NCBI RefSeq assembly: GCF_000165485.1
Contig: NC_014623.1
Span: forward strand, 9,256,893 to 9,320,892
Direction: 5' to 3'
DNA: 64,000 bases
From: Stigmatella aurantiaca DW4/3-1
GTDB lineage: Bacteria; Myxococcota; Myxococcia; Myxococcales; Myxococcaceae
The position numbers and the translations under genes were made by a program. Within the stretch, counting starts at the first letter, position 1, and every line of letters begins with the position of its first letter. Below the pieces are notes generated by a model. That model saw nothing but the letters and a program-made list of their open reading frames with translations. It was not told where the DNA came from and searched no databases. Of this stretch, positions 1-46,143 are shown piece by piece.

Positions 1-840
1 CGCGTGAAGGCCGGCCGGTCCGCGCGGGAAGTGGGCGACGGCACCCTGAAGGTCCCGGGCACGGACCCGGTGGTTATCCGGACCCTGGTCGTCCCCTTGC
101 GCTCCCTCTCGGCCGAGAACGCCGGCCTGCTGTACGTGGCGCACGATGTGACGGCGCTGCGGAGCCTGGAGCAACACCTCCAGCAAGCCAACGAGGAGCT
201 GAACACCGCCAACCTCCGGCTCCAATCCTCCAACGAGGAGATGCGCGCCTCCAACGAGGAGCTCGAGACGACCAACGAGGAGCTCCAGAGCGCCAACGAG
301 GAGCTCCAGACGACCAACGAGGAGCTTCAGTCCACCAACGAGGAGCTCGAGACGACCAACGAGGAGCTTCAGTCCACCAACGCCGAGCTGGACGCCACCA
401 ACCGGGAGTTGGCCCACCGCACCCAGGAGATGGATGCGCTGAGCTTCTCCCAGCACGCCATCATCCGTGCCCTCTCCGAGGGGGTGATGGTGCTGGATGC
501 CAACGGCTACATCACCGCGTGGAACCTTGCCGCCGAGCGGCTGCTGGGCCTCACCGAGCGAGAAACGGTGGGCCAAGTGCTGTGGACCCTGCGCATCCCA
601 GCCCTCAACCGGGCCCTGCTCAACCGCGTCCGCAAGCACCTGACGGCCAACCGGACCTTGCGCCAGGAGGATGTCAGCTATCAGCTTCCCCATGGCGGAC
701 GGGGCCGCGCCACCTTGGTGGCCACCCCCCTCATTATGGATTCCCAGGTCCTCGGGGCTATCATCCTCCTCGAGGACACTACCCGGCTGAGCACGCTCGC
801 CCAGAAGAACCGGGAAATGAAGGAGCGCATGAAGGCATGA
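1..840 (+). CDS. C-terminal part of a CheB/CheR/PAS-type chemotaxis signalling protein (5' end outside window)
   Basis: The frame is open from the first base, so the true start lies upstream. The visible 279 codons end a PAS-like segment (LYVAHDVT), continue into a long helical stretch of NEEL-type heptads around codons 60-130, and finish with a PAS domain at about codons 145-260. This heptad linker is the hallmark of the large CheB-CheR-PAS fusion proteins that combine methylesterase, methyltransferase and sensor modules in the cytoplasm. The stop codon overlaps the next gene by 4 nt (ATGA), so this protein probably feeds the hybrid kinase translated right after it. The missing N-terminus means the CheB and CheR domains are inferred from the linker type, not seen. 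Confidence 0.8.
   Translation, partial: RVKAGRSAREVGDGTLKVPGTDPVVIRTLVVPLRSLSAENAGLLYVAHDVTALRSLEQHLQQANEELNTANLRLQSSNEEMRASNEELETTNEELQSANEELQTTNEELQSTNEELETTNEELQSTNAELDATNRELAHRTQEMDALSFSQHAIIRALSEGVMVLDANGYITAWNLAAERLLGLTERETVGQVLWTLRIPALNRALLNRVRKHLTANRTLRQEDVSYQLPHGGRGRATLVATPLIMDSQVLGAIILLEDTTRLSTLAQKNREMKERMKA
189..396 (+). repeat. 21-bp heptad-coding repeat (coiled-coil linker)
   Basis: Tandem 21-bp units encode the heptad NEEL[QE][ST][TSA] about nine times in a row. The repeat predicts a parallel coiled coil linking sensor domains. The units differ mostly by silent or conservative changes, so this is a protein-level repeat and not a mobile array. Confidence 0.8.
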
Positions 841-2504
841 GTCCTCGCCGCCCTCACCCGCGTCACCCGCCCGGCATCCTCCCGGTGCCTGAGGCCAAGC
901 CCGGGGGGGCACTGCTTCGCAAGTACCAGGAGCTGACCGCCAAGCACGAGGCCCTGGTGCACCGCCTGGAGGTCCGCAACGACGAGCGCATCTCGACCTA
1001 CCAGCTCTCCACCTGGGCTCTGGAAACGACGGCGAGCGCGCTCGCTCTCCTGCGTGCCCAGTCCGTTCTGCTGGCCAACCGGCGCTGGCATGCGCTGGCG
1101 CGCAGCGGCCCCTGGCAGCAGCTGCGCCAGTGGGAGCCCACCGGCCCTGCCCTGGCGACGCTCCGGGAGGTGGTCCACCATGAAATCGATGCCTTGCTCT
1201 CCTCGAGGGAACCGGGCATCCGCGGCCAGCTCTACCGGAAGCAGGGCTCCAACGAGACGCTGGAGATTCGCGTGGAGCGGGCGGGCCCCCGGACCCGTGT
1301 CCCCCGGACCCAGATGGTCCTGGCCCTCATCCACGACGCCACCCAGGAGACGCTCGCCGCGGCCGAGTTGGAGCAGGCCCGCGCGGCGCTGGCCCGGCAA
1401 GAGCACCTGCGGGCCCTGGGGGAGATGTCCTCGGGCATCGCGCATGACCTCAACAACACCCTCAACGCCATGCGGCTCCGGCTGGAGATGCTCCAGCGCG
1501 ACGCGGCGTTCGCGCCGCACCAGGCGAAGAACCTGAAGTCCCTCATGCAGATCGTCTCCGACGCGGGCACCCGCGTGCGCCACCTGCAGGAGTTCTCGCG
1601 GCAGCGGTTCGAGCCCAGCCAGGAGCAAGTTCACCTCCACGGCATCATCCACGAGGCGGTGGAGCTTGCCCGCGACAACATCGAGCACCGCGCGCGGAAC
1701 GAGGGGGTCAAGCTCCGCATCGAGAACGAGGTGCCCGTCCTGCCCGCGGTGAACGGCGAGGCCGCGGACCTGCGCTACGTCTTCCTCAACCTGCTCCTCA
1801 ACGCGCGGGATGCCATGCCCCACGGGGGCACCGTGCACCTGCGGGGGACCGTCTGCGCCTCGAAGGTGGTCATCACCGTGGAGGACGAGGGCACGGGCAT
1901 CCCCCAGGACCACCTGGACAGCATCTTCCTGCCCTTCTTCACCACCAAGGGGGCCCAAGGCACTGGCCTGGGCCTGTCCATGGCCTATGGCGTCGTCTCG
2001 CGCGCCGGGGGGACCCTCACCGCGGCCAACCGGCCCAAGGGCGGTGCGGTCTTCACCCTGACCTTCCCGGTCCCCAACACCGCTCCAGCGGCCCCGGCGC
2101 CTGCCGCCTCGGAGCACGCATCCATGCGCGCCCTGCAGGGACGCGTGCTCGTCATCGACGATGATGACTCCAGCCGTGACGCGCTCACGATCGCCCTCGA
2201 GTCCCTCGGGATGAGCGTGGAAGGGGTGGCCAGCGGGGCCGCGGCACTCAAGCAACTGCGCAAGGGCACCCCATGGGACGCCGTGCTCTGCGACATCGGC
2301 CTGCCGGGCATGAGGGGGTGGACGGTGGCTCAACGAATGAACAAGCTCGCCCCCCAGCTCCCCCTCTACCTCATCACCGGCAGCCCGGGCGAGGCCCCTC
2401 CCAAGGGCACAAGGCCCAGCAACGTGCGCGCTCTGCTCGCCAAGCCGTTGGCGCTGACCCTCCTCTGGAAAGCCCTCGCGGACGTTCTTCCCAGCCAGAA
2501 GTAG
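837..2504 (+). CDS. Hybrid sensor histidine kinase with C-terminal receiver
   Basis: The start at 837 forms an ATGA overlap with the preceding stop; an in-frame extension back to 519 would run across the preceding gene and is not needed. The 555-residue soluble protein has an N-terminal PAS-like sensor region (about residues 45-175), a HisKA domain with phosphoacceptor His in GIAHDLNNTLNAM (about residue 203), a HATPase with N-box NLLLNARDAM and G-boxes DEGTGIP and GTGLGLS, and a receiver from about residue 435 with acidic pocket VIDDDD and phosphoacceptor Asp in LCDIGLP (about residue 485). It has no membrane segment, so it should sense a cytoplasmic cue, probably relayed by the chemotaxis-type protein encoded before it. 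Confidence 0.9.
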   Translation: MSPRRPHPRHPPGILPVPEAKPGGALLRKYQELTAKHEALVHRLEVRNDERISTYQLSTWALETTASALALLRAQSVLLANRRWHALARSGPWQQLRQWEPTGPALATLREVVHHEIDALLSSREPGIRGQLYRKQGSNETLEIRVERAGPRTRVPRTQMVLALIHDATQETLAAAELEQARAALARQEHLRALGEMSSGIAHDLNNTLNAMRLRLEMLQRDAAFAPHQAKNLKSLMQIVSDAGTRVRHLQEFSRQRFEPSQEQVHLHGIIHEAVELARDNIEHRARNEGVKLRIENEVPVLPAVNGEAADLRYVFLNLLLNARDAMPHGGTVHLRGTVCASKVVITVEDEGTGIPQDHLDSIFLPFFTTKGAQGTGLGLSMAYGVVSRAGGTLTAANRPKGGAVFTLTFPVPNTAPAAPAPAASEHASMRALQGRVLVIDDDDSSRDALTIALESLGMSVEGVASGAAALKQLRKGTPWDAVLCDIGLPGMRGWTVAQRMNKLAPQLPLYLITGSPGEAPPKGTRPSNVRALLAKPLALTLLWKALADVLPSQK

Positions 2505-35169: not shown

Positions 35170-38100
35170 TCACGGGCAGCTGTCGTAGTCGTTGAGCGGA
35201 TTGATGTGGCCCTCGGCGTTGCCCGTCAGCGACACCGCATACAGGCCACCATCCCAGGATCCGTCGCTGAACGTGACGTGAGCATAGGGCGCCAGCATCG
35301 TTCCCTGGATTCCGATGCTCCTGGCATGGATGTGAGTCGCATCCACGAAGTTGTAGAGCACGCCGCGCTGATCGATTCCGCCGCTGAAGGTGAAGCTGAA
35401 CTGAGCGAGGGTGACCGCGGTTCCGCGGATATTCACCACGGCCATGGAACCGGCCGGCGCGTGAATGTGGAACAGCTTGGCCCCCGCCAATGCGCTGGCA
35501 TTCATCTCGAAGACATTCAAGGACGGATTCGTGCCGTTCAACATCACGCCGCCCCACGGCTCGAGCGATGTGCGGCCATTGGCCGGCAAATGGTGGAGCC
35601 TTGAGGACAAATTCCGCAGGTCAGCAAACCGGGCCGCGAATTGAATGGGTGTGCCTTTCCTCGGACGGCCTCGCGGATAAACCACGCTTGGATCCGCACT
35701 GTAGGTGCCTCCGTACCAGGCATCCCCCCAGACTGCCCCGCGCGACAGGGTCAGGTTCCCCCCAGCGACCAGCGTGTTGGCGATCCCGTTGTCCGGTAGC
35801 CCCGAGCCCACCGCAAAATTCGTCAGGGTGATGTTTCCACCTGCCGCCACTTTGCCCACGATGTCGTGCCCTCCTGTGTAGTCCTCCAGCAAGAACAGGT
35901 TGTAATCGCCCAGACGGACATTCAAGCAACAGGAGCCGACCGAAAGGTGGCGGACGGCGGTACTCGTGTGCCCCGCAGGATCCTTGACCGTGTAGGAGAC
36001 CGTATACTGGCCCTCACGGGACTGATCGAGGTTGCTGGAGACAACGATGTTCGACGAGAGGTCTCCAGAACAGACGTCTTCGGCCGTGGCACCTGGGTCC
36101 TGATAGGGCGTACCGGAGCACGCGAGGACGTCGGGGCCGGGCTTCATGTGGATGACCGGGGCGAGCGTGTCCTGAACGGTCACCACACGATCCGCGGAGG
36201 CCGTGAGGCCGACCCCGTCCGCGACTTCGTAGTGGACGGAGTACGTGCCGACGGCCGCGCTGTTCACCCCCGCCGTGGTGACGATGGAGGCCGTCAGATC
36301 CCCGCTGCAGATGTCTGACGCGGCCGCCCCTTGTTCCAGATAAGGGGTGCCACACTCGAGCGTCGTGTCTGAAGCTCCCAGAAGTTGCAGAACGGGAGGA
36401 GTGGTGTCCACGACCGTGACGGTGAAGGCCCCACTGGCCACATTGCCATGACCATCCTGGGCGCCACAGGTGACGGTGGCCGTCCCCAGAGCGAAGGTGG
36501 TCCCGGAAGCCGGCGTGCAAGTGACCGGCAGCGAGCCGGAGATTGCGTCCGTGGCCGTCGCGCTGAAAACCGCCACGGCGCCAGCGGGGCTGGTCCCCTC
36601 CAGCACGATGGGGGCAGGCAACTGCAACACAGGCAGATCGACATCGAAGAGGCACTCGCCCTGAGGGCTGCAGTAATGACCGGTCAAGCAATCTTCGAAG
36701 GTCGTGCACTGGGTGAGACAAGCGGTGGCTCCGCACACAAACTGAGTACAGGCCGCGGCCGTGGGCGCTGGGCAAGCGCCACCGCCGTCGCAAAATGCCG
36801 CTTGAATCTCGACATTCGCGGCACAGCTCGCTTGGCGGCACTCGACGGCCGCCCCGGGATAGGAACAATGACCGCTCGTGCCGTCGCAGCTGCCGCCACA
36901 GACAGAGCCGTCAGAGGCGCACGCCGGACGGCCGCCCGATGGAGCACCCGTGACAGGTGAGCACGTCCCCTCCAGGCCTGGCACGTTGCAAGCCATGCAC
37001 TGCTCCGTACAAGCGCTCTCGCAGCAAACACCATCCACACAGGATCCGCTGAGGCACTCCTCGGGGCTCGAGCAGGTGTTTCCATCGGGCCCTTTCACCA
37101 AAGCGAACTGTGCGGTGAGGACGGTGTCTCCGGTGATGACGAAGTTGCACGGGTTGACGGTACCGGTGCAAACACCCGTCCAGCCCATGAATGTGCTGCC
37201 AGGGTCGGCGGTCGCGGTGACACTCACCAGGGTCCCCGCCATAAACTGCGCAGTCGCGTGGGTGCAGGCACCATCGCAGGTGATGGCCGCCGGACTGGTG
37301 ACCACCGAGCCAGTTCCTTGGAAGCCAGGCGCCTTGTTCACGGTCACTTGGAAGAGCTCTCCGATCGAGTCGGTGTCGGTGCTCTGGTTGTTGTGGAGAT
37401 GGTTGTCGGCCATTCCGGAGGGAACCGTGACAGAAGCCTGGTTGGAGAGGATGCCACTTCCGGATCCGCTGACAACGGCCGCGCTCAACGTGAAGATGGC
37501 CTTGGCATTGACCGGCAGGTCGACTTCCGCATCGATGGAACCGGTGCCTGAGGGCGTGGCGCAGGAGCCACCGTCCACCGCGGTGCAGGTCCACGAGAGC
37601 CCGGTGAGCTGTGCCGGCAGGGTGTCGATCACGCGCGCGCCAGCCACCGCCGAGGGCCCCCGGTTCGTCACCTCAATGACGTACTGAAGGGGCTGACCCC
37701 AGGTGACCGCAGCCAGACCATCGCTCTTCGTGAGCACCAGATCCGCGAACACCATGTCCTGGGTGATGGCCGTCTCGACCAGCGGCCCGAGAAGCGGGGA
37801 AGCGGTGTCTGAGCGGACGGTGTAGGTGCCGTTGCTCACGAACGACGTCTCGCCAGGATCAATCTTCACCGTCAGCGAGAAGGTCGTGCTCGCGTTGGGA
37901 TTGAGGGTGCCCAGGTTGCAGGAGACCGTGCCTACCGCACCGGCTGCGGGAGTGGTGCAGCTCGCGCCCGGTGCATTCACCGCAACGAAAGTGGTCTTCG
38001 CAGGAAGGGGCTGTTCGACGATGACGTTGGTGGCCATGTCAGGGCCAGCGTTCTTCACCAGATAGGTGTAGGTCAGATCACTGCCAGCATTCGCATGGGA

Positions 38101-38928
38101 GGGGGCGCTCGCGGCGATCGACGGACCAGGAAGGAAGGCACCGAAGTTGTCCACATAGACATGGCCGAAGTGGCCCCCCTGAGAACACCCGGCGGAGACA
38201 ATGGTGAGCTCCAGTTGGTCCCCGATTGTGAAGTCTTCGTCTGCCGGGGTCAGATCGAAGGCCCTCCAATTGGTGTAGAGAACCCGGGTTTCAGGATCTG
38301 TTTGCCACGGGACACCGCCCTGTCTCGAATACGCGAACGACGAAGACATCTGCTTGTTTCGAGAGACATTCCATACCGAAACATAAAAATAGGGCTGCTC
38401 AACGTCCGAGTGTCCCGGATCCTCGAAAACCAGCGCCAGCGTGAACCTCAGGTGTATTTTCCCATCCGCTGGATCGACGTCCGCGTTGGTGGTGTGGAAG
38501 ACCTGGCTCAGGCTGTTGGTGTTGTAGTCCTTGCCCAGGCTGTTGATGACCGCGGACCACTGGCCATGATACGGATAGCGCAGTTGCGAGCTCGCGCTGA
38601 GGCCCGCCGGAATCTGCGTTCCTTGCGCCCCTCCCACCGCGGAAGTCAGATCCAAACCCACGGCAGCGTCAAGGTTCAAATCAAAAAAGCTGGCAGGTGG
38701 GACCGCGCGCAGCCCTCTGCGATTGGCATACACGTTCACAGTCCATCCGCTCAGGCTGCCGTCCTCGAAGCCGCCATTGGCAATCAGCGGCACCTCGATA
38801 TGGCTGAGCGTCTGTTTCTGATGCGAATTGTCCGTCGCATTCGGCTCAGCAGTGCAACCCGATAAGAGCAGCGTGACAGCAACCACAACAAGTGTAGCCA
38901 AACCAACCGAACCGAGCTTCTGTGGCAT
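35170..38928 (-). CDS. Large surface lipoprotein with DUF11, DUF5011 and choice-of-anchor A domains
   Basis: ATG 38928 gives a lipoprotein signal with lipobox LLSGC (Cys about residue 25) and GGGGGGG at about 8 nt upstream. The 1252-residue protein has an N-terminal beta-rich domain, two DUF11-like domains (AGSDLTYTYLVKNAGPDM, then VTWGQPLQYVIEVTNRGPS), an EGF-like Cys-rich region (about residues 620-770), HYR/DUF5011 Ig-like domains (two with DPGATAEDVC-type ends) and a C-terminal choice-of-anchor A domain (LGDYNLFLLEDYTGG, KVAAGGNITL, AHVTFSDGSWDGGLY). It is probably displayed on the cell surface as an adhesin or matrix protein. The anti-sigma/STAS pair follows 69 nt downstream. Confidence 0.85.
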   Translation of the reverse strand: MPQKLGSVGLATLVVVAVTLLLSGCTAEPNATDNSHQKQTLSHIEVPLIANGGFEDGSLSGWTVNVYANRRGLRAVPPASFFDLNLDAAVGLDLTSAVGGAQGTQIPAGLSASSQLRYPYHGQWSAVINSLGKDYNTNSLSQVFHTTNADVDPADGKIHLRFTLALVFEDPGHSDVEQPYFYVSVWNVSRNKQMSSSFAYSRQGGVPWQTDPETRVLYTNWRAFDLTPADEDFTIGDQLELTIVSAGCSQGGHFGHVYVDNFGAFLPGPSIAASAPSHANAGSDLTYTYLVKNAGPDMATNVIVEQPLPAKTTFVAVNAPGASCTTPAAGAVGTVSCNLGTLNPNASTTFSLTVKIDPGETSFVSNGTYTVRSDTASPLLGPLVETAITQDMVFADLVLTKSDGLAAVTWGQPLQYVIEVTNRGPSAVAGARVIDTLPAQLTGLSWTCTAVDGGSCATPSGTGSIDAEVDLPVNAKAIFTLSAAVVSGSGSGILSNQASVTVPSGMADNHLHNNQSTDTDSIGELFQVTVNKAPGFQGTGSVVTSPAAITCDGACTHATAQFMAGTLVSVTATADPGSTFMGWTGVCTGTVNPCNFVITGDTVLTAQFALVKGPDGNTCSSPEECLSGSCVDGVCCESACTEQCMACNVPGLEGTCSPVTGAPSGGRPACASDGSVCGGSCDGTSGHCSYPGAAVECRQASCAANVEIQAAFCDGGGACPAPTAAACTQFVCGATACLTQCTTFEDCLTGHYCSPQGECLFDVDLPVLQLPAPIVLEGTSPAGAVAVFSATATDAISGSLPVTCTPASGTTFALGTATVTCGAQDGHGNVASGAFTVTVVDTTPPVLQLLGASDTTLECGTPYLEQGAAASDICSGDLTASIVTTAGVNSAAVGTYSVHYEVADGVGLTASADRVVTVQDTLAPVIHMKPGPDVLACSGTPYQDPGATAEDVCSGDLSSNIVVSSNLDQSREGQYTVSYTVKDPAGHTSTAVRHLSVGSCCLNVRLGDYNLFLLEDYTGGHDIVGKVAAGGNITLTNFAVGSGLPDNGIANTLVAGGNLTLSRGAVWGDAWYGGTYSADPSVVYPRGRPRKGTPIQFAARFADLRNLSSRLHHLPANGRTSLEPWGGVMLNGTNPSLNVFEMNASALAGAKLFHIHAPAGSMAVVNIRGTAVTLAQFSFTFSGGIDQRGVLYNFVDATHIHARSIGIQGTMLAPYAHVTFSDGSWDGGLYAVSLTGNAEGHINPLNDYDSCP

Positions 38929-39115
38929 TGTCACCACCCCCCCCTGCTGAGCCGGCGCAAAACATGTGCCCGGCTTTACGGGCCGCGTATGTAGAGCGTC
39001 CGGCAGGACGCGTCTGTAGAACGCAGAGCAGAGAGATCAGTTGGCAGTTTATCGAATGGGGGTGCTCACCCCCGTACCAGCCCCCACCGCCTGCTTCTCC
39101 CACGTGCGCCACACG

Positions 39116-39140
39116 AACGCGGACTCAGAAGGTCTGCGTT
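39116..39140 (+). promoter_or_regulatory. Rrf2 operator candidate 1
   Basis: A 25-bp dyad, AACGCGGAC, 7 bp, GTCTGCGTT, with one mismatch between arms. It lies 43-67 nt before the Rrf2-type gene and matches operator 2. Confidence 0.65.
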
Positions 39141-39157
39141 TTTCGCTTGCCCCCTCG

Positions 39158-39182
39158 AACGCGGACCCGTAGAGTCCGTGTT
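39158..39182 (+). promoter_or_regulatory. Rrf2 operator candidate 2
   Basis: A second 25-bp dyad, AACGCGGAC, 7 bp, GTCCGTGTT, one mismatch between arms, ending exactly one base before the Rrf2-type ATG. The centre is 42 bp from that of operator 1, about four DNA turns, so two dimers could bind the same face. Confidence 0.65.
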
Positions 39183-39716
39183 ATGGCTCACCTGACCACG
39201 AGCGTCGAATACGGCATCCACTGCCTCATCTGGCTGGTCGACTCGAACGACACGCCGCTGAGCAGCCGTGACCTGGCCGAGCTCCAGGGCATCTCGCCCA
39301 CCTTCCTGGCCAAGATCTTCCCCAAGCTCGAGAAAGCGGGAATCGTCGCCGCGAGCGAGGGGGTGCGCGGCGGGTACCGGCTCGCCAAGGCCCCAGAGGA
39401 CATCAGCTTCCTGGAGATCGTCGATGCCATCGAGGGAGAGAAGCCGCTCTTCGACTGCCAGCAGATCCGCGGCCGTTGCGCCGTGTTCGAAGGCACCACG
39501 CCCCCCTGGGCCACGGCAGGCGTCTGCGCGGTTCATGCCGTGATGCTGCGCGCGGAGAAGTCGATGCGCGAAACGCTGGCCAAGGAATCGCTCGCCGACG
39601 TCGCGAAGACCTTCCGCCGGAAGTCGCCGCCAGCGTTTTCAAGCGACCTCCAGAACTGGGTCGGCAATCGGGTCCAGGCCCGCGCCTCCCCGCGCAAATC
39701 GCGAACGCCCAAGTAG
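39183..39716 (+). CDS. Rrf2-family transcriptional regulator
   Basis: The 177-residue protein has the Rrf2 winged helix (SSRDLAELQGISPTFLAKIF as recognition region, then GVRGGYRLAK wing) and a central region with three Cys: FDCQQ, GRCAVF and GVCAVH. The first two are six residues apart, unlike the tight spacing of typical Fe-S NsrR/IscR clusters, so cluster binding is possible but unsure. Two dyads overlap its start region, which suggests autorepression. It precedes and is probably cotranscribed with an NDH-2-like flavoprotein, so it likely senses redox state, NO or a similar stress. Confidence 0.9.
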   Translation: MAHLTTSVEYGIHCLIWLVDSNDTPLSSRDLAELQGISPTFLAKIFPKLEKAGIVAASEGVRGGYRLAKAPEDISFLEIVDAIEGEKPLFDCQQIRGRCAVFEGTTPPWATAGVCAVHAVMLRAEKSMRETLAKESLADVAKTFRRKSPPAFSSDLQNWVGNRVQARASPRKSRTPK

Positions 39717-39743
39717 CCGTCAGCCACTCAAACCCCTGAGCTT

Positions 39744-39773
39744 CTTCTCGGCTTCCGCCGGACGGCCGAGAAG
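39744..39773 (+). promoter_or_regulatory. Hairpin between the Rrf2 gene and the flavoprotein gene
   Basis: Perfect 9-bp arms, CTTCTCGGC (39744-39752) and GCCGAGAAG (39765-39773), enclose 12 nt. No T-run follows, so it may be an attenuator or mRNA-stability element rather than a terminator. Confidence 0.5.
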
Positions 39774-39848
39774 CCCACCGTGCACCCGCACGGCGGCACG
39801 ATGCTCCGCGTCCGGCGCCTCAACGACAACCCGACAGAAAGCAAGACC

Positions 39849-41057
39849 ATGACCCAGAAGATCGTCATCGCCGGCTCAGGATTCGCAGGCATGTGGGCGG
39901 CCATCTCCGCCGCCCGCGCCGTGTCGCTGGCAGGAAAAGAGAACGAGGTGGAGATCACCATCGTGTCGCCGTCGCCCCACCTGCACATCCGCCCTCGCCT
40001 TTATGAAACCGTGTTCGAGGAGATGGCACCGGACCTGGCACCGCTGTTCAAGGCGATCGGCGTTCGCCACCTGGCTGGCACGGTCGAGGCGATCCATGCC
40101 GGCTCACATCAAGTCGAAGTGCTCGGAGCGGACGGTCAACGCACGACGTTGCCCTATGACCGGTTCGTGCTGGCGGCCGGCAGCCGCCTGTTCATGCCGA
40201 ATGTGCCGGGCCTCAAGGAACACGCTTTCAACGTCGACCAACTGTCGAGCGCGATGGCGCTCGATGCGCACCTGAAGGCGCTCGCCCACAAGCCGGAGAC
40301 GGCCGCCCGGAACACGGTGGTGGTCGCGGGCGGTGGCTTCACCGGCATCGAGACCGCGACCGAGATGCCGCAGCGGCTGCGCGCCATCTTCGGCCAGGAC
40401 GCGAAGATCCGTGTCGTGGTGGTGGAGCAGGCGCCTGTCATCGGACCCGATCTCGGGCCAGTTCCCCGCCCCATCATTGAAGAGGCCTTGGCGGAGTGCG
40501 GCGTGGAGGTGCGCACTTCCACGGGGGCCACGGCGATCGACGCGAAGGGGGTCACCCTGTCCACCGGGGAGCGGATCGACACCCAGACGGTGGTCTGGAC
40601 CGCCGGTTCGAGAGCCAACCCGCTCGCCGCGCAGATCGAAGGTGAACATGATCGCTTTGGCCGGGTTCACGCCGACCCGTATCTGCGCGCCAAGAGCGTC
40701 AAGGACATCTTCGTCACCGGGGACGTGGCGTTGGCCGCGACCGACGATCAAGGCAATGTGGCCTCGATGTCGTGCCAACACGCGATACGCCTCGGCCGCT
40801 TCGCCGGCCACAACGCCGCCGCGGAGCTGGTCGGTTTGCCGGTCCAGCCGTACCGCCAGCCGAGGTATGTCACGTGCCTTGATCTCGGCGCCTGGGGCGC
40901 GATCTTCACCGAGGGCTGGGATCGCCAGGTGAGGCTGAAACGTGCAGAGGGCAAGGCCACCAAGCGCGAGATCAACACCAAGTGGATCTACCCGCCCCAG
41001 GCGGACCGGGACGCTGCCTTCGCGCTCGCCAATCTGGACGACGCGGTCGTCGCCTGA
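39849..41057 (+). CDS. NDH-2-like FAD-dependent pyridine nucleotide oxidoreductase
   Basis: The 402-residue protein has an N-terminal FAD-binding Rossmann motif (IVIAGSGFAGMWAA, residues 5-18), a second nucleotide-binding motif in VVVAGGGFTGIETA (about residue 160) and the C-terminal FAD contact IFVTGDVA. This is the layout of type II NADH dehydrogenases and related flavoproteins that pass electrons from NAD(P)H to quinone or another acceptor. The C-terminal amphipathic region (about 345-390) could contact the membrane. The start at 39849 is preceded by a weak AGAAAG; upstream codons in frame are not conserved-looking. It follows the Rrf2 gene by 132 nt and shares its strand. Confidence 0.88.
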   Translation: MTQKIVIAGSGFAGMWAAISAARAVSLAGKENEVEITIVSPSPHLHIRPRLYETVFEEMAPDLAPLFKAIGVRHLAGTVEAIHAGSHQVEVLGADGQRTTLPYDRFVLAAGSRLFMPNVPGLKEHAFNVDQLSSAMALDAHLKALAHKPETAARNTVVVAGGGFTGIETATEMPQRLRAIFGQDAKIRVVVVEQAPVIGPDLGPVPRPIIEEALAECGVEVRTSTGATAIDAKGVTLSTGERIDTQTVVWTAGSRANPLAAQIEGEHDRFGRVHADPYLRAKSVKDIFVTGDVALAATDDQGNVASMSCQHAIRLGRFAGHNAAAELVGLPVQPYRQPRYVTCLDLGAWGAIFTEGWDRQVRLKRAEGKATKREINTKWIYPPQADRDAAFALANLDDAVVA

Positions 41058-41107: not shown

Positions 41108-41121
41108 CGTGTGGAGACACG
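41108..41121 (+). promoter_or_regulatory. Ribosome-binding site in a hairpin loop (copy A)
   Basis: CGTGT and ACACG form 5-bp arms with the Shine-Dalgarno GGAG as the four-base loop, ending just before ATG 41123. Present identically in copy B. Confidence 0.4.
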
Positions 41122-41122
41122 G

Positions 41123-42490
41123 ATGAATCCTCCCCCTGAGCCTTCCCGGCTTCCTCCTGGCACCGAGGTGGGCTCCTGGCGCGTGCTGGAACGCATCGGC
41201 CATGGCACCTACGGCACTGTCTATCGCGTCGAGCCTCTCGGCCACATCGGCGCTCAGCCTCTGGCGCTGAAGCTGGCCCTCCACCGGGCCGATCCTCGCT
41301 TCGAGCGGGAGGCGGTACTGCTCTCCCGCCTCGCACACCCCCACGTGCCCAGCCTCCACGGCCAGGGGCTCTGGGCTCACCCCTCGGGCCCCTTCCCCTT
41401 CCTCGTCATGGACTGGGCCGGGGGCATCCCCCTTTACGCCTGGGCGCTTGCTCACAGTCCCTCCTCCCGCCAAGTCCTGTCCGTGCTGGCCCAGGTGGCT
41501 CACGCCCTGGCCGCACTCCATGCCGTGGGGGGCGTTCACCGGGACGTCAAAGGCGACAACATCCTCGTACGGCCCTCGGACTTCCACGCCACGCTGATCG
41601 ACTTCGGCGCGGGCAGCTTTCACGGCGCGCGGCCTCTGACCGAGGAACTGCTTCCTCCAGGCACTCCTCCCTACCGCAGCCCGGAGGCCCTGGAGTTCCG
41701 GTGGCGCTTCTGGTTCCAGCACGGCATGCATTACGCCCCTGCTCCGGCGGACGATGTGTATGCGCTCGGCGTCACCGCCTATCGCCTCCTCACCGGCACC
41801 TATCCCAGCAGCCACCCCAAGCACCCACCCGCCGAGACCTTGGCCACCTTCAGCCCCGAGTTGGCCAAGCTTCTGCGGCGAATGCTCTCCCGGAAGCCCT
41901 CGGCCCGAGGCCTCATGGACGAGGTAGCACGCGCGCTCCAAATCGCAGCGGAGCGGGCGGGGCCTGAAGCGGATCGCTCCATCCTCCGCCGTCCCCAACC
42001 CTCGCCTGGCCCCGCCAGGCACCGGCGTCCACCCGCGCGCTCCTCGGGCTCTCGCAGAACGTGGGTAGGCGTGGCGGTAGGGCTGGGTGCTTCGTTTGCC
42101 CTTCAGGCAGGGTGGGCCGCTTGGCGTCACGCACAAGAGGGGGCGGGGATGGGCTGGGCCTGGCCAGCCCTTGATCCCGCGCGTGAGGACACGGGAAACA
42201 CGGGGCTTGCGAAGGAGGCACTCCCGGACAATGCCGTCCCTCACCCACCCGAATCCGCCTGGGCGCGGATCAGCCTCGAATTTCCGAAGCGACCCCTTCC
42301 CTCTCAGGCTCGGCCACCCTGCAAGAAGCGCGAAGCGGAACTCAACGGAGGGTGCTGGATCCGGCCGGCGGATGCGACGCCTCCCTGTGGGGATCGGTAC
42401 TACGAATGGAAGGGCCTCTGCTACTTCCCGGTCCTCGCGCCTCCTCCTCCCGCGACTTCGGCGCCCTCCTTGAAGCATCCCTCGGAATGA
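41123..42490 (+). CDS. Ser/Thr protein kinase with C-terminal Cys-rich extracytoplasmic tail, copy A
   Basis: The 455-residue protein has a Hanks kinase domain (about residues 15-285) with P-loop GHGTYGTVY, LALKLAL lysine, VHRDVKGDNILV catalytic loop and IDFGAG, so it should phosphorylate Ser/Thr. One membrane helix (about 315-335) follows a basic linker, leaving a Pro-rich stalk and a short tail with four Cys (CKK, GGCW, PPCG, GLCYFP) outside the cytoplasm. ATG 41123 is used because GGAG sits 6 nt upstream; a GTG 12 nt earlier is in frame. It faces the Imm52-like gene, stops 66 bp apart. Copy B at 44.8-46.1 kb is nearly identical outside the tail. Confidence 0.9.
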   Translation: MNPPPEPSRLPPGTEVGSWRVLERIGHGTYGTVYRVEPLGHIGAQPLALKLALHRADPRFEREAVLLSRLAHPHVPSLHGQGLWAHPSGPFPFLVMDWAGGIPLYAWALAHSPSSRQVLSVLAQVAHALAALHAVGGVHRDVKGDNILVRPSDFHATLIDFGAGSFHGARPLTEELLPPGTPPYRSPEALEFRWRFWFQHGMHYAPAPADDVYALGVTAYRLLTGTYPSSHPKHPPAETLATFSPELAKLLRRMLSRKPSARGLMDEVARALQIAAERAGPEADRSILRRPQPSPGPARHRRPPARSSGSRRTWVGVAVGLGASFALQAGWAAWRHAQEGAGMGWAWPALDPAREDTGNTGLAKEALPDNAVPHPPESAWARISLEFPKRPLPSQARPPCKKREAELNGGCWIRPADATPPCGDRYYEWKGLCYFPVLAPPPPATSAPSLKHPSE

Positions 42491-42556
42491 ACGGCGGGAG
42501 AGCGGAAGCCTTCCGCCGCAACCCGTGCTGTCTCCTTCCATGGCCCCTCGCCGCGC

Positions 42557-43276
42557 CTACTTGGAACTCATGGGCTGAAGGGGCCTCAAGAGCCCCGCCC
42601 CTTCCAGCAGCCCATGGACGCGCCCCGCCAGGGCCACATGCTCTGGATTGGAGACGCTGAACCGCTCAGGGGTCAGAACCACGAGCGTCCCCTTGTCCTC
42701 CACCGCCTCAACCCTCACGGGTTCAGGCAGCGGGGGTATCCGACCTCTCTGACGCGAGAAATACGTGACCCATCCCGTAAATGTGCCTGGCCGAGGGCGC
42801 TCGGTCTCCTGAGGACCGGACGCATCGGATGTTGCAATCGCCCACTCAGGTTCCCATGCCAGCGCCAAGGCGCGCACGACTTCGGCCAAAAGAGAAGCAC
42901 TCAGCAACCGCTCCACACTGGCCCCCTGCTTGGGTGGCTTGAGCAAGCAAACAGAGGTTGTCAGCGGCGACGATGAACCGCAGGCCACATTGACGGTTGT
43001 TGTTTCATCTGGCTTCTCGCCTGACCACAGCCAGAAGTGGAAACCGTCACCTATCCGATTCCTCTTTCGCCCGAACATCTTCAGAAACGCGGCGGCATCC
43101 GTGTTGACACTCCGTTGACGCGCCTCCTCAAAGGAGTTCGCTGTTTCATGCCATCGATTCCAGTCTTTGTTGCAGCGGCCCAGAATGCTGAAAAAGCGCT
43201 CCGAGCGCCGGGCGCAATCCTGGGCAGACTCGTGGCGGGCCAACCAATATGCCCCCGCATGATAAGTCTCTCTCAT
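42557..43276 (-). CDS. Imm52-like immunity protein
   Basis: The 239-residue protein starts METYHAGAYW-like (MRETYHAGAYWLARHESAQDCARR), the opening typical of the Imm52 immunity family, which accompanies polymorphic toxin nucleases. It has no signal peptide, so it should stay in the cytoplasm and bind the toxin's nuclease domain. It follows the toxin gene by 14 nt with AAGGA overlapping the toxin stop, so the two are one operon, toxin first. A truncated copy lies at 46.2-46.5 kb. The family call is from memory of the motif and needs a profile search. Confidence 0.75.
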   Translation of the reverse strand: MRETYHAGAYWLARHESAQDCARRSERFFSILGRCNKDWNRWHETANSFEEARQRSVNTDAAAFLKMFGRKRNRIGDGFHFWLWSGEKPDETTTVNVACGSSSPLTTSVCLLKPPKQGASVERLLSASLLAEVVRALALAWEPEWAIATSDASGPQETERPRPGTFTGWVTYFSRQRGRIPPLPEPVRVEAVEDKGTLVVLTPERFSVSNPEHVALAGRVHGLLEGAGLLRPLQPMSSK

Positions 43277-43290
43277 TGGCTGTCTATTCC

Positions 43291-44637
43291 TTATGAACCT
43301 GGGGGGACATGAATGACCTCGATACCGATATCATTGAGGCGAAAGAGCTTGCGGAGAGCTGCCGCGAATCTCTCTTCCGCGACAACCCACCGAACGGGAG
43401 TCCCCTGAGATGCAACCCACTGGCGGCGGGCTTGCTCGATCACGTTATCGGCCCCCTTGAAAAAACCAACAGGGTCCAGATCATCATCGATGAACTTCGC
43501 ATACCCAGGCCCCTTGGCCTCCAGCAAGACCCCATCTCGATACCCATCAAAGTCCGCTTTCTCTCCTCCACCCTTCACCCGGTAAGCCGAACCCTCCGGA
43601 GCTCCTGTCACCTGGGCCTGATACTTCCGGGCACTCGCGGACATGCTCTCGTTCACCTGCACCCATGTTCCGGGGCCTCCTCCGGAAGCTCCTCCCGAGC
43701 CCATGGCCGCCATGGCCACGGCCGTGGGCGCCAACGTGAGCGCAAGCTGTCCCTCCACCACCGCCACCGCACCCACCTGCTCCACCGCCGACAGCCTCAG
43801 CCCTACCTGGCTCGCTGCCAATGCCGCCGCCTCCGGGAAACTCGGCAACAACGGCATCCTCGCCGCCAACCACGTGGCCGTTCCTCCGGTTCCACGGCTC
43901 ACCACCACCGTCACCGCCAGGATGAAGACCCGCGCGCCCTGGGTGCCCAGGCTTTGGCCGAAGCGCTGCCCCGCCCTCTCCAGTTCCGCCACGGTGGCGG
44001 CCACGTCCGTGGCCCTCTTCAATTCCATGCTGGCCTTCAACACCTCCAGGAAGGCGTCCACGCCCAAGTAGGCCATCATCACGGCGGCCACCACCGCCGC
44101 TGTCTTGGTGAACACCGGCTCGGGGGCTGCCGCCAACGCTACCCATGACACCAGTCCAGTGACAACCACGGCGTAGAAGAGCTGCGGGGTCAGCGTCTGC
44201 TTCACTGCTTCAGCGATGCTCCTCTTGAGCGGCCCCAGCGACAGGCCCAGCGCCACCATCAGCCTGTCCTCCTCCGTCCACCTTCCCACGTCCTCCAGCG
44301 AGGACAGGCAGTCTTGATGGGACGCAGACGTCTCGCAGACCCCCCCATCGCTCTTGCGCAGCAGGACATGCCACGGCGTGTCTGCCTCCCCCCCTGCGTG
44401 GGTGGTCCGCACCAGCCACCGAGCTTGCGTCGAGCGGATGGCCAGCGGAGCTTCCAACACCCAGGCTGCCAGCGCGCCCTTGAACTCGTCCTCGTTTATC
44501 CGCACCGCCTTGTTCCAGCTCGGCGGCACGTACTCCCGCGCAGGCCCCTCCCCCGTCTCAAGGCGCACCCTGCGCGAGGTTCCACACCCGCTGGCCACTA
44601 TCAGCAGGATGCCCCACGCGATCCATCGAGCGTTCAC
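43291..44637 (-). CDS. Lipoprotein toxin with C-terminal Tox-REase-5-like nuclease domain
   Basis: GTG 44637 with GGAAGG upstream opens a lipoprotein signal (WGILLIVASGC, lipobox ASGC, Cys about residue 18); the frame back to 45675 is antisense to the kinase and rejected. The 448-residue protein has a variable exported N-domain (two Cys in VCETSASHQDC), a hydrophobic middle with two possible helices (about 160-210), a Gly-rich linker and a C-terminal domain (about 355-448) with DFDGYRDGVLLEAKGPG, a PD-(D/E)xK-type Asp/Glu-x-Lys set, as in Tox-REase-5. It should cut nucleic acid in target cells. The architecture matches SitA-type toxins of myxobacteria; that is inference. Confidence 0.8.
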   Translation of the reverse strand: MNARWIAWGILLIVASGCGTSRRVRLETGEGPAREYVPPSWNKAVRINEDEFKGALAAWVLEAPLAIRSTQARWLVRTTHAGGEADTPWHVLLRKSDGGVCETSASHQDCLSSLEDVGRWTEEDRLMVALGLSLGPLKRSIAEAVKQTLTPQLFYAVVVTGLVSWVALAAAPEPVFTKTAAVVAAVMMAYLGVDAFLEVLKASMELKRATDVAATVAELERAGQRFGQSLGTQGARVFILAVTVVVSRGTGGTATWLAARMPLLPSFPEAAALAASQVGLRLSAVEQVGAVAVVEGQLALTLAPTAVAMAAMGSGGASGGGPGTWVQVNESMSASARKYQAQVTGAPEGSAYRVKGGGEKADFDGYRDGVLLEAKGPGYAKFIDDDLDPVGFFKGADNVIEQARRQWVASQGTPVRWVVAEERFAAALRKLFRLNDIGIEVIHVPPGS

Positions 44638-44760
44638 GAGCACCTTCCTTCCGAGAGTCCTTGCAGCGTCTGAACTCCATCCTCGTTCTTCTGACCAGTC
44701 TCTGGCGAATGATGCGTGGGAAACTCTCAGTTCCTTCCCACCTCCGTGGCGTAAAGTCCG

Positions 44761-44774
44761 CGTGTGGAGACACG
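44761..44774 (+). promoter_or_regulatory. Ribosome-binding site in a hairpin loop (copy B)
   Basis: Same CGTGT, GGAG, ACACG arrangement as in copy A, ending just before ATG 44776. Confidence 0.4.
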
Positions 44775-44775
44775 G

Positions 44776-46143
44776 ATGAATCCTCCCCCTGAGCCTTCCC
44801 GGCTTCCTCCTGGCACCGAGGTGGGCTCCTGGCGCGTGCTGGAACGCATCGGCCATGGCACCTACGGCACTGTCTATCGCGTCGAGCCTCTCGGCCACAT
44901 CGGCGCTCAGCCTCTGGCGCTGAAGCTGGCCCTCCACCGGGCCGATCCTCGCTTCGAGCGGGAGGCGGTACTGCTCTCCCGCCTCGCACACCCCCACGTG
45001 CCCAGCCTCCACGGCCAGGGGCTCTGGGCTCACCCCTCGGGCCCCTTCCCCTTCCTCGTCATGGACTGGGCCGAAGGCATTCCCCTTTACGCCTGGGCCC
45101 TCGCGCACAGTCCCACCTCCCGCCAAGTCCTGGCCGTGCTGGCCCAGGTGGCTCACGCCCTGGCCGCACTTCATGCCGGGGGGGGCGTTCACCGGGACGT
45201 CAAAGGCGACAACATCCTCGTACGGCCCTCGGACTTCCACGCCACGCTGATCGACTTCGGCGCGGGCAGCTTTCACGGCGCGCGGCCTCTGACCGAGGAA
45301 CTGCTTCCTCCAGGCACTCCTCCCTACCGCAGCCCGGAGGCCCTGGAGTTCCGGTGGCGCTTCTGGTTCCAGCACGGCATGCATTACGCCCCCGCCCCGG
45401 CGGACGATGTGTATGCGCTCGGCGTCACCGCCTATCGCCTCCTCACGGGGACCTATCCCAGCAGCCACCCCAAGCACCCACCCGCCGAGACCTTGGCCAC
45501 CTTCAGCCCCGAGTTGGCCAAGCTTCTGCGGCGAATGCTCTCCCGGAAGCCCTCGGCCCGAGGCCTCATGGACGAGGTAGCACGCGCGCTCCAAATCGCA
45601 GCGGAGCGGGCGGGGCCTGAAGCGGATCGCTCCATCCTCCGCCGTCCCCAACCATCGCCCGTCCCAGCCAGGCACCGGCGTTCACCCGCGCGCTCCTCGG
45701 GCTCTCGCAGAACGTGGGTAGGCGTGGCGGTAGGGCTGGGTGCTTCGTTTGCCCTTCAGGCAGGGTGGGCCGCTTGGCGTCACGCACAAGAGGGGGCGGG
45801 GATGGGCTGGGCCTGGCCAGCCCTTGATCCCGCGCGTGGGGACACGGGAAACACGGGGCTTGCGAAGGAGGCACTTCCGGACAATGCCGTCCCTCCTCCA
45901 CCCGAACCCGCCTGGGCGCGGATCAGCCTCGAATTTCCGAAGCGACCCCTTCCCTCTCAGGCTCGGCCACCCTGTAAGAAGAGCGAAATCGAGCTCCTGG
46001 GCGGGTGCTGGGTTCGACCGGAGAAGTCTGCTCCTCCCTGCGGGGAGAGGGCCTATGAATGGAAAGGCCTCTGCTACTTCCCGGTCCTCGCGCCTTCTCC
46101 TCCCGCGACCTCGGCGCCCCCCTTGAAGCATCCCTCGGAATGA
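44776..46143 (+). CDS. Ser/Thr protein kinase, copy B
   Basis: This 455-residue kinase keeps every catalytic motif of copy A (GHGTYGTVY, VHRDVKGDNILV, IDFGAG), the same membrane helix and the same length. It differs mainly in the extracytoplasmic tail, where AELNGGCWIRPADATPPCGD of copy A becomes IELLGGCWVRPEKSAPPCGE, with all four Cys kept. It is divergent from the intact toxin gene, starts 138 bp apart, and faces the truncated immunity copy. The intact frame beside broken neighbours suggests it is still selected or recently copied. Confidence 0.9.
   Translation: MNPPPEPSRLPPGTEVGSWRVLERIGHGTYGTVYRVEPLGHIGAQPLALKLALHRADPRFEREAVLLSRLAHPHVPSLHGQGLWAHPSGPFPFLVMDWAEGIPLYAWALAHSPTSRQVLAVLAQVAHALAALHAGGGVHRDVKGDNILVRPSDFHATLIDFGAGSFHGARPLTEELLPPGTPPYRSPEALEFRWRFWFQHGMHYAPAPADDVYALGVTAYRLLTGTYPSSHPKHPPAETLATFSPELAKLLRRMLSRKPSARGLMDEVARALQIAAERAGPEADRSILRRPQPSPVPARHRRSPARSSGSRRTWVGVAVGLGASFALQAGWAAWRHAQEGAGMGWAWPALDPARGDTGNTGLAKEALPDNAVPPPPEPAWARISLEFPKRPLPSQARPPCKKSEIELLGGCWVRPEKSAPPCGERAYEWKGLCYFPVLAPSPPATSAPPLKHPSE

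Follow-up and report, generated by a model that had tools for sequence, protein, structure and literature searches.

Paired dyads before an RsrR-like Rrf2 gene of Stigmatella aurantiaca: predicted operators of an autorepressor and putative redox switch for an NAD(P)/FAD-dependent oxidoreductase

In Stigmatella aurantiaca DW4/3-1, two matched dyads stand directly in front of a gene of the Rrf2 family. They are quite probably the paired operators of an RsrR-like autorepressor that would act as a redox switch for an NAD(P)/FAD-dependent oxidoreductase. The stretch of 64,000 nucleotides analysed here is called the window, and its pertinent features are compiled in Table 1. In the mechanism that we infer from sequence comparison, a dimer of the regulator would bind to operator 2 and cover the -10 hexamer and the start site of a promoter of the sigma-70 type, which is probably leaderless. 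A second, cooperating dimer would sit on operator 1, about four helical turns (42 bp) upstream and just above the -35 hexamer. With both operators occupied, RNA polymerase would be excluded, and the regulator's own gene and the presumably cotranscribed oxidoreductase gene would be repressed. The signal is probably a redox one: by analogy with RsrR, the oxidised [2Fe-2S] form would bind and reduction would release it. The outcome would be a negative-feedback switch tied to the state of NAD(P)H or of an electron carrier.

Table 1. Features of the predicted regulatory unit; positions are those of the window.
Feature	Positions	Strand	Basis or remark
Operator 1 (distal dyad)	39116-39140	.	predicted; counterparts in the 48 of 83 upstream regions with two dyads
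-35 hexamer TTGCCC, predicted	39147-39152	+	sequence; TTG at this place in 44 of the 51 genes whose dyad adjoins the ATG
Operator 2 (proximal dyad)	39158-39182	.	predicted; extends from within the spacer over the -10 hexamer to the base before the ATG
-10 hexamer TAGAGT, predicted	39170-39175	+	family consensus TATAGT; 17 bp from the -35 hexamer
Rrf2-family regulator, RsrR-like, 177 aa	39183-39716	+	Pfam, NCBIfam, sequence and fold searches
NAD(P)/FAD-dependent oxidoreductase (Pyr_redox_2)	39849-41057	+	presumed second gene of the operon

The distal dyad reads AACGCGGAC-TCAGAAG-GTCTGCGTT, the proximal one AACGCGGAC-CCGTAGA-GTCCGTGTT. Both are 25 bp long, their left arms are identical, and in either of them 8 of the 9 arm positions pair. 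An earlier note on this DNA had described two matched dyads at 39116-39182 with centres 42 bp apart, the second reaching the start codon. Coordinates and arm pairing bear this out: the centres lie at 39128 and 39170, and the last base of the proximal dyad, 39182, directly abuts the ATG (39183-39185). The distal dyad ends 6 bp upstream of the predicted -35 hexamer. Symmetry alone is a weak argument, since imperfect 9-7-9 dyads with one mismatch in the arms are common in the window, which holds 21 of them, the two dyads included; an inverted-repeat search that requires an exact arm of 9 bases does not list the pair. The dyad consensus, with up to 3 mismatches allowed, is matched at 2 sites of the 64-kb window, both with 0 mismatches, versus 0.24 expected; 3 of 100 shuffles of the window yielded at least two such matches. 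In the genome of 10.26 Mb, the two dyads are the sole copies with 0 or 1 mismatch. The 16 other forward matches have 2 mismatches each and look like background; the reversed pattern, run as a control, gives 26 matches against a total of 18 forward ones. With an exact pattern that is slightly looser, 2 matches were retrieved from the whole genome, again the two dyads, and 0 with its reversed control. The genome scan that the earlier note had proposed has thus returned only this pair below two mismatches, and neither the mismatch scan nor the looser pattern revealed a wider regulon with this dyad in the 10.26 Mb. It is shared sequence, position and, above all, conservation that carry the case for the dyads.

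Conservation was examined in 83 genes: the best 80 of 135 confirmed loci, picked by similarity to the query, the gene of the window itself and 2 others; three distant homologues (L099-L101) were left out of this set. A dyad was sought at 14 defined positions within 150 nt upstream of each gene. The pattern had been derived from the window, so that the other 82 genes constitute an independent test. All 83 genes have a dyad that agrees at 11 or more of the 14 positions (14 in 41 genes, 13 in 29, 12 in 11 and 11 in 2). Shuffled upstream sequences reach this level in 0.57% of 8,300 cases, and a control stretch inside every gene attains 10 of 14 at most. The earlier note had made its reading depend on the presence of the dyad before orthologous genes; there it is, without exception. 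Two dyads lie within 150 nt in 48 of the 83 genes, with centres 36-43 bp apart; the spacing is 40-43 bp in 40 of these 48, being 40 bp in 21 and 42 bp in 7. Two further loci, L057 and L065, have their second dyad just beyond the 150-nt limit, as judged by the matrix score introduced below. As 35 of the 83 genes show a single dyad within that limit, the pair is not essential. The dyad follows the regulator gene across alpha-, beta- and gammaproteobacteria and the lineage of the window, at varying distances from the ATG. The three distant homologues, which are about 40% identical, are preceded by a diverged dyad only, such as AACTGCGAC-N7-GTGCAAGTT, with matrix scores of 0.4, -5.1 and -15.5, as if operator and regulator had changed together. 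At the locus of the genome's own second full-length Rrf2 gene (L121), no good dyad was found; the best one scores 3.6.

The dyads do not just fit operators of the Rrf2 family, as the earlier note had it; they specifically match the operator of RsrR. The oligonucleotides used in gel shifts with this protein contain AACTCGGATACCCGATGTCCGAGAT and TACTCGGATAGTCTGTGTCCGAGTC (PMC5015018). These have in common with the dyads of the window a CGGA-N9-TCCG core and the half-site AAC.CGGA. In a matrix made from 129 sites of relatives, the window's own two being excluded, the RsrR sites score 13.0 and 14.7 and the dyads of the window 25.9 and 24.1. The sites of the family start at 8.4 and have a median of 31.0, which means that the RsrR operators score below a typical family site. 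None of 200,000 random GC-rich 25-mers scored above -1.8, and 0 of 20,000 shuffles of the probes attained the best RsrR score. A Rhizobium protein (L128) that groups with RsrR in the tree (100/99) has a dyad 16 nt before its ATG that scores 7.3; it displays the same core geometry with other ends. RsrR binds strongly to both of its full sites, the motif is described as 11-3-11, and the positions of the sites suggest repression by blocking of RNA polymerase (PMC5015018). The RsrR of PMC5506826 is an unrelated two-component regulator, another protein under the same name.

That the gene behind the dyads codes for an Rrf2 protein, another claim of the earlier note, is confirmed by Pfam with 5.2e-35 (PF02082, 120.9 bits versus a cut-off of 30); TIGR00738 gives 103.4 bits (cut-off 73.3). 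The best solved relative by sequence is RsrR of Streptomyces venezuelae (4.4e-22), and the next protein follows at 1.9e-11. A fold search with an AlphaFold2 model (53 aligned rows, mean pLDDT 88) placed RsrR entries at ranks 1-11, then CymR, IscR and NsrR. The NCBIfam equivalog cut-offs for IscR, NsrR, RirA, CymR, HypR and the Xanthomonas-type SUF regulator were all missed, e.g., that for IscR (TIGR02010) with 52.1 bits versus 207.55, which Serratia IscR passes, and that for NsrR (NF008240) with 38.1 bits versus 182. In a tree of Rrf2 proteins, a split that would group the regulator with RsrR, apart from IscR and the others, came out at 93/98, but it is drawn open, with very long branches. Its outgroups are few: 7 of 12 other Rrf2 loci gave usable proteins, and two of them are copies of the RsrR-like family.

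E9, H13, C92 and C115 of the regulator are invariant in 83/83 proteins and align with E8, H12, C90 and C110, the ligands of RsrR (numbering as in PMC9218516). The residues of an RsrR-type ligand set are present; a [2Fe-2S] cluster would be expected by analogy. C99 is likewise invariant (83/83) and H118 is found in 82/83, and C115-xx-H118 aligns with the final Cys and the His in IscR of Serratia (L116). As the residues of both the RsrR and the IscR ligand set are present, the latter with another Cys spacing than in IscR, the cluster could be ligated in a way unlike that of RsrR. The place of RsrR's Trp9 is occupied by Tyr10 in 83/83. With Tyr10 instead of the switch Trp9, we call the protein an RsrR-like variant, not RsrR itself.

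The start of the oxidoreductase was set at 39849, the residue from which most relatives align. A similar oxidoreductase is encoded downstream on the same strand in 43 of the 83 loci, the window included, with 54-100% identity over the matched part; a relative lies upstream of the regulator in 5 more. None was found at the three distant loci (L099-L101). In L071, the frame of the oxidoreductase begins 4 bases inside the end of the regulator, which suggests cotranscription there. In the window, the gap between the two genes amounts to 132 bases, and an inverted repeat of 9 bp with a 12-nt loop (39744-39773) separates the two genes of the presumed operon, which is a counter-point to it. As a terminator, this repeat was not accepted, because it lacks a T run.

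Other partners were identified by protein comparison and by Pfam/NCBIfam on chosen examples (one set of 10, 3 of them with no match). Calling the longest open frame leads to wrong genes in GC-rich loci, and the clusters of open frames are therefore approximate. With this proviso, downstream frames of another kind cluster in 23 loci; three that were typed are LuxR-type response regulators (L030, L055, L078). Within the flanks examined of the 83 loci, relatives of an Azospirillum NmrA-like protein occur at 15 and cupin relatives at 13, both of them at 12, and NAD-dependent epimerase-like proteins are seen downstream in L066 and L069. In six Azospirillum loci (L018, L020, L021, L022, L024, L026), dyads occur as a pair once more, spaced 40-42 bp and some 1.5 kb upstream of the regulator. 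This second pair stands before an NmrA-like gene, and a cupin gene comes next (one each typed); in G066 a dyad pair stands before such a gene pair elsewhere in the genome. RsrR of Streptomyces represses its neighbour nmrA (PMC5015018), so that the link between an RsrR-like and an NmrA-like protein recurs. In 19 genomes, the exact pattern was found in 0-3 copies each, with any copy in 15 of the 19 and 2 in total for the reversed control. Four genomes that bear the gene have no exact copy, and these counts are therefore lower bounds. Such numbers of exact dyads per genome would fit local control.

Some Azospirillum loci deserve a separate remark. In L016, L017, L019, L036 and L040, the regulator lies downstream of genes that belong to one cluster of open frames; those of L017 and L036 were typed as nifK. 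Behind the regulator of L040, typing gave nifE and nifN. A putative redox sensor would thus reside within the nif cluster of these loci. In Azospirillum oryzae (L104), a second Rrf2 gene (511-1074, minus strand) adjoins the NmrA-cupin pair; its product is NsrR/RirA-like, under both equivalog cut-offs.

The same operators could also serve a regulator working like IscR or NsrR, in which loss or conversion of a cluster held by Cys3-His would signal iron, oxygen or NO. We consider this possible, yet rather unlikely. The residues point in both directions: the conserved C99 and H118, both missing in RsrR, and the IscR-like C115-xx-H118 would suit such a mode, whereas the invariant Glu and His ligands of RsrR are absent from Serratia IscR. 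Similarly, the vicinity of nif genes in Azospirillum would agree with it, but typing of the partners gave NAD(P)- or FAD-binding proteins, cupins and response regulators and no gene of Fe-S assembly. Moreover, RsrR is nearest in both sequence and fold searches, and the operator matches that of RsrR. We thus prefer an RsrR-like switch. In RsrR itself, the oxidised cluster binds DNA, and reduction weakens the binding (PMC5015018, PMC11138216). A bolder picture would be a widespread proteobacterial RsrR-like branch with both ligand sets, whose cluster might change its ligands with the redox state and in this way shift the DNA-binding domain. The regulator would be a leaderless autorepressor with paired operators, whose regulator, promoter, operators and flavoprotein move between lineages as one unit, in some Azospirillum among nif genes. 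In its entirety, this picture is tentative and we deem it unlikely.

Might the dyads be targets of another regulator, or activator sites, the Rrf2 protein being a bystander? The operator role of the dyads is predicted from sequence, and the genome has only one pair of them, which leaves some room for this view. We hold it for quite improbable, however, for the dyad accompanies the gene through the proteobacterial classes and matches the operator known from the closest homologue that has been characterised, and its overlap with the -10 hexamer and the start site favours repression.

This overlap is best seen in the family. In the window, the predicted -10 hexamer lies inside the proximal dyad, with 7 nt between it and the ATG. 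The promoter is weak, agreeing with the consensus at 8 of 12 positions (by eye), and a simple promoter scan of 38900-39900 at 9/12 positions found none; as the promoter is below the threshold of that scan, its call rests on family comparison. The same scanned stretch contains a single terminator-like site (38968-38983, minus strand). The proximal dyad comes within 0-2 nt of the ATG in 51 of the 83 genes and directly abuts it in 44 of them. A TTG is found 17 bp from the -10 hexamer in 44 of these 51, and the hexamer matches TATAAT at 4 or 5 positions in 43 and at 2 or 3 in 8. The remaining 32 genes, among them those of Azospirillum, nine of Acinetobacter and five of Serratia, have 24-90 nt between the dyad and the ATG. 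There, TTG is kept at unchanged distance in 21 and is missing from that place in 11; the nine Acinetobacter rows have it two bases closer (by eye), while L070 and L092 have no TTG and a best dyad that does not cover a -10 hexamer. The -10 place of these 32 shows 4 or 5 matches to TATAAT in 15 and at most 3 in 17. Overall, TTG is kept relative to the dyad in 65 of the 83 genes. With the distance to the ATG varying and TTG being kept, the dyad tracks the promoter and not the start codon, if less sharply in the far group. This favours a transcriptional operator over a ribosome site. The earlier note had expected promoter and ribosome-binding region to be blocked together. Its first half agrees with the dyad lying over the -10 hexamer; its second half is not supported, and with the variable distance we rejected blocking of the ribosome site as the main mechanism.

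In the 51 genes mentioned, a -10 hexamer inside the dyad would leave no more than 7-9 nt up to the ATG, so that the mRNA is predicted to be leaderless. Transcription of the regulator gene would probably start at the A of the ATG or one base before. Leaderless translation prefers ATG start codons, and the start codon is ATG in 83/83 genes. A Shine-Dalgarno-like tetramer at -18..-4 is absent from 51/51 of the near-ATG genes and from 31/32 of those with a far dyad; being common to both groups, this absence does not discriminate.

Dyads that can form stems, one of them abutting the start codon, might also act in the RNA as a hairpin controlling translation. This is very improbable: a start at or just before the ATG would leave both dyads outside the mRNA, the left arm of the proximal dyad is upstream of the -10 hexamer, and the arms are of fixed sequence (AAC.CGGA), not freely covarying. 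That the dyads are chance products or relics of repeats, as the 21 one-mismatch dyads of the window might insinuate, is refuted by the conservation (83/83 genes versus 0.57% of shuffles) and has a practically negligible probability.

Transcriptional operators of an RsrR-like autorepressor being the preferred reading, with strong support from comparison, the question arises where the unit came from. Besides the genome of the window, a search of 59 genomes (E up to 1e-20) found the regulator gene in 1 of 6 others from the genus and in 1 of 28 others from the family; a homologue of about 40% identity is present in 3 of 24 genomes of the rest of the order. The best 80 of 135 relatives are Pseudomonadota in the tree. 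A tree of 86 proteins, midpoint-rooted and with 24 of its 83 inner branches open, unites the three genes found in the window's family in a single clade (99/92), which is nested within the proteobacterial sequences. This clade sits below a 98/97 fork; two Sphingomonas sequences are outside that fork. This nesting, and the fact that only 2 of the 7 searched genomes of the genus have the gene, suggest a joint acquisition by transfer of regulator, operators, promoter and flavoprotein.

Next to the unit in the window, a large surface protein is encoded divergently (35170-38937, minus strand); DUF11, Ig-like and choice-of-anchor A / ice-binding-like adhesive domains were recognised in it. Some 180 bp separate the start of its frame from operator 1, and no other dyad copy is nearer to it. 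On the other side, an Imm52 immunity protein (42557-43276, minus strand) lies beside a frame with a Tox-REase-5 domain (43291-45675, minus strand), and the flanking protein-kinase-like frames (41111-42490 and 44764-46143) are near-identical by eye. The stretch 41111-46143 thus appears to hold a polymorphic toxin with its immunity protein, in a block that is duplicated in part.

Detailed knowledge of RsrR comes from a single Streptomyces species. Our searches of the open-licence literature yielded neither an operator of nor an experiment on an RsrR-like protein from beyond Streptomyces. As a group of proteins, these relatives may already be in print: in PMC9218516, the RsrRs fall into one similarity cluster, and three large uncharacterised Rrf2 clusters are named. 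If our reading is true, the operator code of RsrR is common to proteobacterial relatives, and these would be much simpler systems, in which one or two promoters are controlled, the partner enzyme is defined and the operator covers the promoter. Their extra conserved Cys and His would make it directly testable which residues hold the cluster in which redox state.

The closest known system is RsrR of Streptomyces venezuelae (Sven6563; class 1 operators, nmrA-rsrR intergenic; PDB 6hsd, 6y42). The two regulators have in common the Rrf2 fold, Glu, His, Cys and Cys at the ligand positions and a similar region, SPTFLAK versus SPSYLAK, which we take to be the recognition helix. The half-site AAC.CGGA, the 9-bp gap from CGGA to TCCG and two operators before the own gene are also shared, as are, in several relatives, NAD(P)-binding partner proteins. 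Unlike RsrR, the regulator of the window has the additional conserved C99 and H118 and Tyr10 for Trp9, its operators are 42 bp apart versus 27 bp, its promoter is predicted to be leaderless, and its partner is an FAD oxidoreductase. The scale differs, too: one operator place in the S. aurantiaca genome contrasts with 630 ChIP-exo sites in Streptomyces, where, of the class 1 ChIP-seq targets of RsrR, a single one was significantly changed upon loss of the protein (PMC5015018). IscR (Serratia, L116) has the same fold and three Cys in the same region, the last in C-xx-H. It lacks the Glu and His of helix 1, its Cys spacing differs from the C-x6-C-x15-C of the window protein, and no Fe-S assembly gene is among the typed neighbours. 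NsrR of Streptomyces coelicolor also shares the fold, and its dimer sits on a site of 23 bp (PMC9338935). Its [4Fe-4S] cluster, however, is ligated by Asp and three Cys (PMC5411485), which are different ligands, and it is lower in sequence score and in fold rank (20). The system of the window thus appears to be of a known kind, and a variant of it: what would set it apart are extra ligand candidates, the Tyr in place of the switch Trp, operators spaced more widely and a promoter that is probably leaderless.
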